Positions 48,218 to 48,896 of a stretch of 50,929 bases of DNA are shown piece after piece. A program made the position numbers and the translations under genes. The DNA is from Chloroflexota bacterium (GTDB taxonomy: Bacteria > Chloroflexota > Anaerolineae > UBA1429): contig JAJFUJ010000050.1 in the NCBI GenBank assembly GCA_021372475.1, forward strand, positions 1 through 50,929, read 5' to 3'. The notes below the pieces were generated by a model. It saw only the letters and a list, made by a program, of their open reading frames with translations, was not told where the DNA came from and ran no database searches. The stretch's first letter is position 1. Each line of letters opens with the position of its first letter.

Positions 48218-48473
48218 GTATTTCCGAGGGTGTTGAAAAAGAGGTTCTTTCCTTATACTTGCCCACTGGGAAACAGGAAGCGTCATTCCGACGCAGGCCG
48301 GAATCCAGTATTGATCTGATATATAGTGTAATATATCATATCATAACAAGCATAAAAGCAAGACTCGGATGGGTTCCTGCTTGCGCGGGGAATGATCTGC
48401 GAGTTCGCAACCCTGTCTTTCAGACACTACGGTGTCTCCAGTTGGATACTTTTTCAACACCCTCGTATTTCCG
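48218..48473. mobile_element. MITE-like element with 15-bp inverted ends and 9-bp target duplication
   Basis: The 238-bp element (48227-48464) starts AGGGTGTTGAAAAAG (48227-48241) and ends with its exact inverse CTTTTTCAACACCCT (48449-48463) plus one C. It is flanked by the exact direct repeat GTATTTCCG (48218-48226 and 48465-48473), a target-site duplication. It encodes no transposase. Inside, near 48276-48298 and 48368-48400, are two imperfect palindromes of the ATTCC...GGAAT type that are widespread in bacterial genomes. The right end is five bases from the -35 of the rplU promoter. Confidence 0.85.
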
Positions 48474-48477
48474 GCTT

Positions 48478-48507
48478 TTGACAAATCTTCTTGACATCGG
48501 GTATAAT
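48478..48507 (+). promoter_or_regulatory. rplU operon promoter
   Basis: TTGACA (48478-48483), 18-bp spacer, TATAAT (48502-48507), both consensus. A second TTGACA at 48491-48496 is too near the -10 to serve. The leader to the rplU ATG is about 70 nt. Confidence 0.7.
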
Positions 48508-48584: not shown

Positions 48585-48896
48585 ATGTATGCTGTTATAG
48601 AGACCGGCGGAAAACAATATAAAGTCTCAGTCGGCGACCATGTCGATGTTGAGTTGCTGGAAGCTAATGCGGGCGACCTGGTCGAGCTCCCGCGCGTGCT
48701 GATGATTGCTGACGGCGATCAAGTGCAGGTGGGTAAGCCCGTTCTCGAACAAGCCAAGGTGACGGCTCGCGTACTAGGCACCATGCGCGCTCCGAAGGTC
48801 ATTATATTCAAGTACCGCGCAAAAGAGCACTACCGCCGCAAGACCGGCCACCGGCAGGATCTTACTCAGCTACGCATCGAGTCCATTCAGGCTTAG
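48585..48896 (+). CDS. rplU: 50S ribosomal protein L21
   Basis: The 103-residue product begins [18 protein letters not shown], the L21 N-terminus, and ends with the RNA-binding block [21 protein letters not shown] (typical KxK...YRRKxGHRQ). GGAGG precedes ATG 48585; an upstream in-frame start at 48531 would extend the leader and is not favoured. It heads rplU-rpmA-rpmE. L21 contacts 23S rRNA early in assembly. Confidence 0.97.

Follow-up and report, generated by a model that had tools for sequence, protein, structure and literature searches.

What places a short, repeated piece of DNA immediately upstream of the promoter of a ribosomal protein gene, and is its position there an accident or a rule? 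The window in which this question arose, the whole stretch of 50,929 nucleotides that was analysed, is one contig (C38 of genome G000) of a 3.26-Mb draft genome of an Anaerolineae bacterium (Chloroflexota), assembled in 250 contigs and 98% complete. It carries, upstream of rplU, what the original prediction described as a MITE-like insertion. Very probably, the element is a non-autonomous miniature transposon for which a promoter-choosing DDE transposase of the IS5/IS1182 (DDE_Tnp_1) type acts in trans, joining it to the chromosome 5 bp upstream of a -35 box.

The inverted ends and the direct repeat GTATTTCCG on both sides of the element were found at the positions originally given, and only their lengths had to be revised. 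Copies of the element were gathered by search and by region and aligned, and their duplications were scored in order to set the ends. The direct repeat at rplU is indeed perfect, but comparison of the copies gives a duplication of 8 bp (8/8 in 12 copies and 7/8 in 7 copies), and the 9-bp length was therefore dropped. The ninth base, a G, is an element base on the left side but a host base on the right side, and is thus identical by chance. The inverted ends match perfectly (16/16), within a 17-nt inverted pair at 48225-48241/48449-48465 returned by an inverted-repeat search of the segment. With ends of 16 bp (GAGGGTGTTGAAAAAG) and a duplication of 8 bp, the element thus occupies 48226-48464, i.e. 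239 bp, replacing the 15-bp ends and the 238-bp body first proposed (Table 1). With the duplication taken as 8 bp, the statement that its right copy stops five bases before the TTGACA holds. The element is non-coding, the sole ORF across it (111 aa) being a mechanical one. Two palindromic stretches of the body, CATTCC...GGAATC at 48270-48310 and 48365-48400 of the window, presumably resemble the dRS3-type repeats of other bacteria.

Table 1. Features of the element and of the promoter and gene next to it (positions in the window)
Feature	Coordinates	Strand	Basis or remark
MITE, 239 bp	48226..48464	.	Genome-wide DNA matches; ends set by comparing 19 copies whose duplications match at 7/8 or 8/8
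Left terminal inverted repeat GAGGGTGTTGAAAAAG	48226..48241	+	The autonomous element L106 has an identical left end
Right terminal inverted repeat, exact complement of the left	48449..48464	-	
Target-site duplication, left copy GTATTTCC	48218..48225	.	8/8
Target-site duplication, right copy GTATTTCC	48465..48472	.	8/8
5-bp gap from duplication to -35 box	48473..48477	+	Constant in the family
Targeted rplU promoter: -35 TTGACA 48478-48483, 18-bp spacer, -10 TATAAT 48502-48507	48478..48507	+	12/12 consensus matches
rplU, encoding ribosomal protein L21, the gene behind the targeted promoter	48585..48896	+	PF00829, E 9e-39

The element at rplU belongs to a miniature transposon family present in many copies. 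A 291-bp query gave 43 DNA matches genome-wide, and about 40 further copies are present in the same genome, with identities of 79-96%. The 15-bp end, allowing at most one mismatch, occurs at 91 sites in the 3.26 Mb, as opposed to none for the reversed control. Duplications are intact in the 19 copies mentioned above, and their sequences differ between sites. The family is thus short, multi-copy, bounded by inverted ends, devoid of a transposase gene and flanked by duplications at different sites, as MITEs are, and an autonomous partner with the same ends exists in a genome of the same family (L106 in G006), outside the own assembly. The suggested search for further copies of the ends and of the whole element therefore came out in favour of an insertion. 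It was also fair to call the event recent, with perfect duplication and ends and with the closest sister copies 96% identical.

Other repeats share this genome with the rplU-type copies. The loci L062, L064, L066 and L080 (contigs C185, C209, C245 and C36) contain a second repeat with ends GGGGCTGTCC(A/G)AAAAGTAACAATTTTCC... and TTTTTGGACAGCCCCT, which is another miniature element nested in the rplU-type element. At L063 (position 2097), L075 and L087 (contigs C196, C175 and C2), the same ends as those of the rplU family enclose a different body (GAGTCG(T)AGAGATTCCGCCCGCTC...), and one of these elements is nested or in tandem with the main type. Several bodies thus use one set of ends.

A comparison of the rplU upstream region with relatives, also suggested at the outset, revealed an empty site. 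In G008, the homologous end of the upstream gene is followed by 24 bp, then by TTGACA-18-TATAAT and rplU, without any insert; the equivalent interval of the window measures 30 bp after removal of the element and of one copy of the duplication. A like promoter is found upstream of rplU in three relatives (G008, G011 and G014). The original prediction had named the outcome that would tell against it, namely no other copies anywhere and relatives carrying the same body without a boundary. Neither was observed. An insertion of MITE type is supported by the numerous copies, the inverted ends, the target duplications, the empty orthologous site and the same-ended autonomous element in relatives.

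The proximity of the element to the rplU promoter is real, but it is not incidental, since it corresponds to the insertion rule of the whole family. The first sign of this rule was the presence of TTGAC from position 13 outward at a large share of the element ends. Among the 19 intact copies, the best-scoring predicted sigma70-type promoter on either side has its -35 box starting exactly 13 bp outside one end in 18, and 12 bp outside in the other one; the offset of 13 is the sum of the 8-bp duplication and 5 bp. By chance, a promoter scoring this well would be met at a given offset with a frequency of about 0.0008 per side. When all 97 distinct flanks are considered, a promoter (at most 3 mismatches, two-box score) is found in 52, as compared with 4.6 after shuffling, and in 34 of the 52 it stands at offset 13. 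For two-ended elements, an offset of 13 with a score of at least 8 was obtained in 24/37, and any other offset from 5 to 25 in at most 3. The promoters are predicted ones, scored with a matrix built from the general sigma70 consensus, and the raw counts of TTGAC are independent of this matrix.

The profile of the 37 distinct flanks details the preferred site. The duplicated bases exhibit no preference and the gap has a weak GGC tendency, then TTGACA is near-invariant from position 13 and a TATAAT-like -10 box follows at 36-41, with a 17-bp spacer in 27 of the flanks. The two types of end are next to the promoter about equally often (16 and 15 times). Genes behind targeted promoters include, besides rplU, ones whose products match LexA, Fur, an S4 domain, HSP70 and ABC transporters. 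Some copies have no promoter at 13, and in most of them the duplication is not intact either. In nearly every case, members of the family insert exactly 5 bp upstream of the -35 box in a predicted promoter.

The same rule is encountered in other Anaerolineae. An end-sequence search that was blind to promoters, run over 396 genomes of the class, returned 70 to 129 ends each in G092, G088, G117 and G075, and a few in several further genomes. These four genomes belong to other families, their end counts are about equal to or above that of the window's genome, and many of their elements measure 80-200 bp. The promoter offset peaks at 12 in G092, at 11 in G075 and at 13 in G088, and duplications are mostly of 6 bp in G075 and of 8 bp in G088, while most elements of G117 and several of G092 have 7 bp. 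Within G092, individual elements with duplications of 6, 7 and 8 bp show offsets of 11, 12 and 13, respectively, and some elements of this genome have other promoters or no recognizable one. As the offset follows the length of the duplication (11, 12 and 13 for 6, 7 and 8), the constant is the 5 bp that separate the promoter-proximal edge of the duplication from the -35 box. In G006, the exact ends are followed by TTGAC or TTGAA at 13 in 5/5 cases. A second end type, GAGGGTGTTGAGAAACCCGGCACA, was found in G006 at L121, L123, L125 and L127, at contig ends in 4/4 and with TTGAC at offset 13, using a pattern that included TTGAC; it probably corresponds to another full-length multi-copy element collapsed in the assembly.

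What does the transposase recognize at such sites? Guidance by promoter-bound RNA polymerase or sigma, rather than by bare TTGACA, would account for the fixed offset, the absence of preference among the duplicated bases and the larger share of -10 boxes at targeted TTGAC, and promoter recognition is favoured on these grounds. An unlikely alternative is that the transposase reads the bare -35 motif (TTGAC) as its target, the -10 box being present because surviving insertions sit in intergenic promoters. The hexamer is indeed the most conserved part of the targets, and 42% of the intergenic TTGAC away from elements also have a -10 box. Such boxes are nevertheless commoner at targeted sites, both in the window's genome (26/29 versus 14/33 other intergenic TTGAC, p = 1.4e-4, with small numbers) and in the other genomes (29/32 versus 2/14, p = 9e-7). 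Furthermore, several intact insertions face a poor -35 box accompanied by a good, well-spaced -10 box (TAGCCA-TACAAT, TTATCA-TATAAT and TTGCCA-TATAAT).

Which enzyme moved these copies? The parent transposase was said to be missing from the window, which is right, and a protein search detected none in the whole draft assembly either. Draft assemblies often lose multi-copy full-length elements, and several contigs of this genome break inside these repeats. The tie to the candidate parent L106 is therefore made by the ends, the duplication length and the target rule. This element is 1472 bp long, with ends matching at 16/16 and 15/16; it is flanked by the duplication CGCTGAGC and faces TTGACG-17-TATACT at 13. 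Its 385-aa transposase harbors two domains, PF05598 (68.1 bits, cut-off 23.1) and PF01609 (75.1 bits, cut-off 23), and scores 151.9 with the IS5_4 model NF033581, above the cut-off of 140. The IS1182 model NF033551 gives the best E-value, yet its score of 213.2 falls below the cut-off of 270, and membership of the IS1182 family in the strict sense was thus rejected. Residues D153, D257, R311, E315 and K322 fit a DDE / R-x3-E-x6-K arrangement and are conserved in three homologues, as read from the alignment. Among solved structures, no match to the transposase was obtained at E <= 0.01, and an AlphaFold model based on three sequences was unusable (mean pLDDT 40). The L106 transposase would be of the kind that moved the copies of the window's genome.

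The two nearest full-length elements lie in Anaerolineae records of the same family (UBA6128 and CSSed162cmA_203). Protein searches identified homologues in G003, G066, G227, G075, G117 and G031, with GAGGGTGTTGAAAAA-like ends, and the loci found by the transposase protein have TTGAC, TTGAA or a spaced -35/-10 pair at 12-13 in 8/8; L156 has TTGAA without a clear -10 box. A scan of contigs with two N-terminal transposase motifs recovered two already known loci and nothing more. A search of the phylum added three homologues, L270, L271 and L272: no clear ends were seen for L270, while in L272, and by the same locus L271, a degenerate end is followed by TTGACA (at offset 13 in L272). In a plasmid collection, all homologues were below 60% identity, those listed being 26-30% identical and annotated as IS5 family. 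In G051, distant homologues (about 28-30% identity) are bounded by CAGGCTGCTGAA-type ends, and in the two cases that could be delimited no promoter was found at the fixed offset.

That a Mutator-type transposase of the ISKra4 or ISLre2 kind was the mover, the identity of ends with an IS5/IS1182-type element being a coincidence, is very improbable. ISKra4 elements, which are known from Chloroflexi, do have near-perfect ends and lie at 13-17 bp from sigmaA promoters, on both sides (Guerillot et al. 2014, PMC3942029), and ISKra4 homologues are found in the class. However, the ISKra4 model NF033572 has no match in the window's genome, and those ISKra4-type elements of the class whose ends could be located have different ones, e.g. 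GGGTGTGACTAAATCTGG or GGTGCATGCACGATTTG. By contrast, in several genomes GAGGGTGTTGAAAAAG-type ends enclose full-length elements that code for DDE_Tnp_1 transposases. For PF06782 (UPF0236/ISLre2-type) no match was found in the own genome either, in a search that was also silent in every control. ISKra4 was rejected as the mover on these grounds, and ISLre2 is an improbable one, the L106 transposase matching DDE_Tnp_1 instead.

It is equally doubtful that the rplU copy was co-opted as a regulator and kept for that purpose, either through UP-element-like ends or through a hairpin. The original prediction had raised such effects on rplU and nothing positive emerged for them: the whole element is predicted to fold as a strong hairpin (-96.6 kcal/mol, z -7.8), but the duplication keeps the promoter and the 13 bp upstream of it intact. 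The end has its T-run some 25 bp upstream of the -35 box, away from where UP elements usually sit, the rplU copy is not special among the copies, G008 has the same promoter without the element, and an Rfam search gave no match. A terminator-like site within the element reads on the minus strand and is close to what shuffled sequences yield. Finally, random insertion followed by selective retention of promoter-side copies, because they do little harm or raise expression, is extremely improbable, for although the targets are within or close to intergenic DNA, in which an insertion is least likely to destroy a function, retention would permit a range of distances, whereas the offset is fixed to one base (24/37 at 13) and tracks the duplication length across lineages.

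In the preferred reading, the element is thus non-autonomous and a DDE transposase from the IS5/IS1182 (DDE_Tnp_1) lineage moves it in trans; this enzyme would pick sigma70-type promoters and make its promoter-proximal cut 5 bp upstream of the -35 hexamer. With a stagger of 8 bp, the duplicated bases lie at about -48 to -41 (in standard promoter numbering, with a 17-bp spacer), i.e. on the face used by the alpha C-terminal domains of RNA polymerase. The core promoter and 13 bp upstream are kept, and the promoter from -48 on survives. Because of this, the element can land beside essential genes such as rplU and leave gene and promoter unbroken. It is also reasonably probable that this IS5/IS1182-type clade, unrelated to the Mutator-type families, independently evolved holoenzyme-guided insertion with a 5-bp anchor, that its stagger drifted between 6, 7 and 8, and that its miniatures spread through many Anaerolineae promoters.

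For the two Mutator-type lineages in which promoter-aimed insertion is documented, a contact between the transposase and the RNA polymerase initiation complex has been proposed, but not shown (Guerillot et al. 2014, PMC3942029). A second, unrelated class of transposases with a one-base-precise ruler would provide an independent system in which to address this proposal, and the covariation of stagger and offset tells which of the two cuts is anchored. In addition, the copies are natural marks of about forty sigma-type promoters in organisms for which few start sites have been mapped, and promoter tagging is a possible use of the transposase.

How does this family compare with known systems? The L106 transposase shares its domain content (PF05598 and PF01609) and its scores with the IS5 and IS1182 families (NF033581 and NF033551). 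No description of promoter-fixed insertion by their transposases was found in the literature covered, ISfinder and most subscription journals being outside its scope, and it can be claimed with moderate confidence that promoter-aiming is newly seen in this lineage. The family does behave as a promoter-targeting transposon, at a fixed distance from a predicted sigma70-type -35 box, a resemblance of behaviour and not of descent. TnGBS/ISLre2 elements (p-MULT 3) likewise insert at a fixed short distance from a sigmaA -35 box (15-17 bp upstream, with a peak at 16) and generate duplications of 8-9 bp (Guerillot et al. 2014, PMC3942029). They rely on a Mutator-type transposase, insert in an oriented manner, with the right end by the promoter, and are found mainly in Firmicutes, whereas the rplU family would rely on a DDE_Tnp_1/IS5-IS1182-type transposase, has both orientations, offsets of 11-13 and duplications of 6-8 bp, and resides in Anaerolineae. 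The ISKra4 elements (p-MULT 4) resemble the rplU family in their near-perfect inverted ends, promoters on either side, a distance of 13-17 bp and members in Chloroflexi (PMC3942029); they differ by their Mutator-type transposase (NF033572) and other terminal sequences, while the rplU family combines a putative IS5/IS1182-type transposase with an invariant 5-bp gap and a duplication of variable length. An ISKra4-type element was seen at L133 (G045, about 1297-2825); its duplication is 9 bp long and TTGACG stands about 16 bp beyond its right end, and it fits the published ISKra4/ISLre2 rule and not that of the rplU family. Bacterial MITEs in general are likewise short, non-coding and multi-copy, with inverted ends and duplications and without a transposase of their own; what sets the rplU-type element apart from them is its single-base precision relative to promoters.
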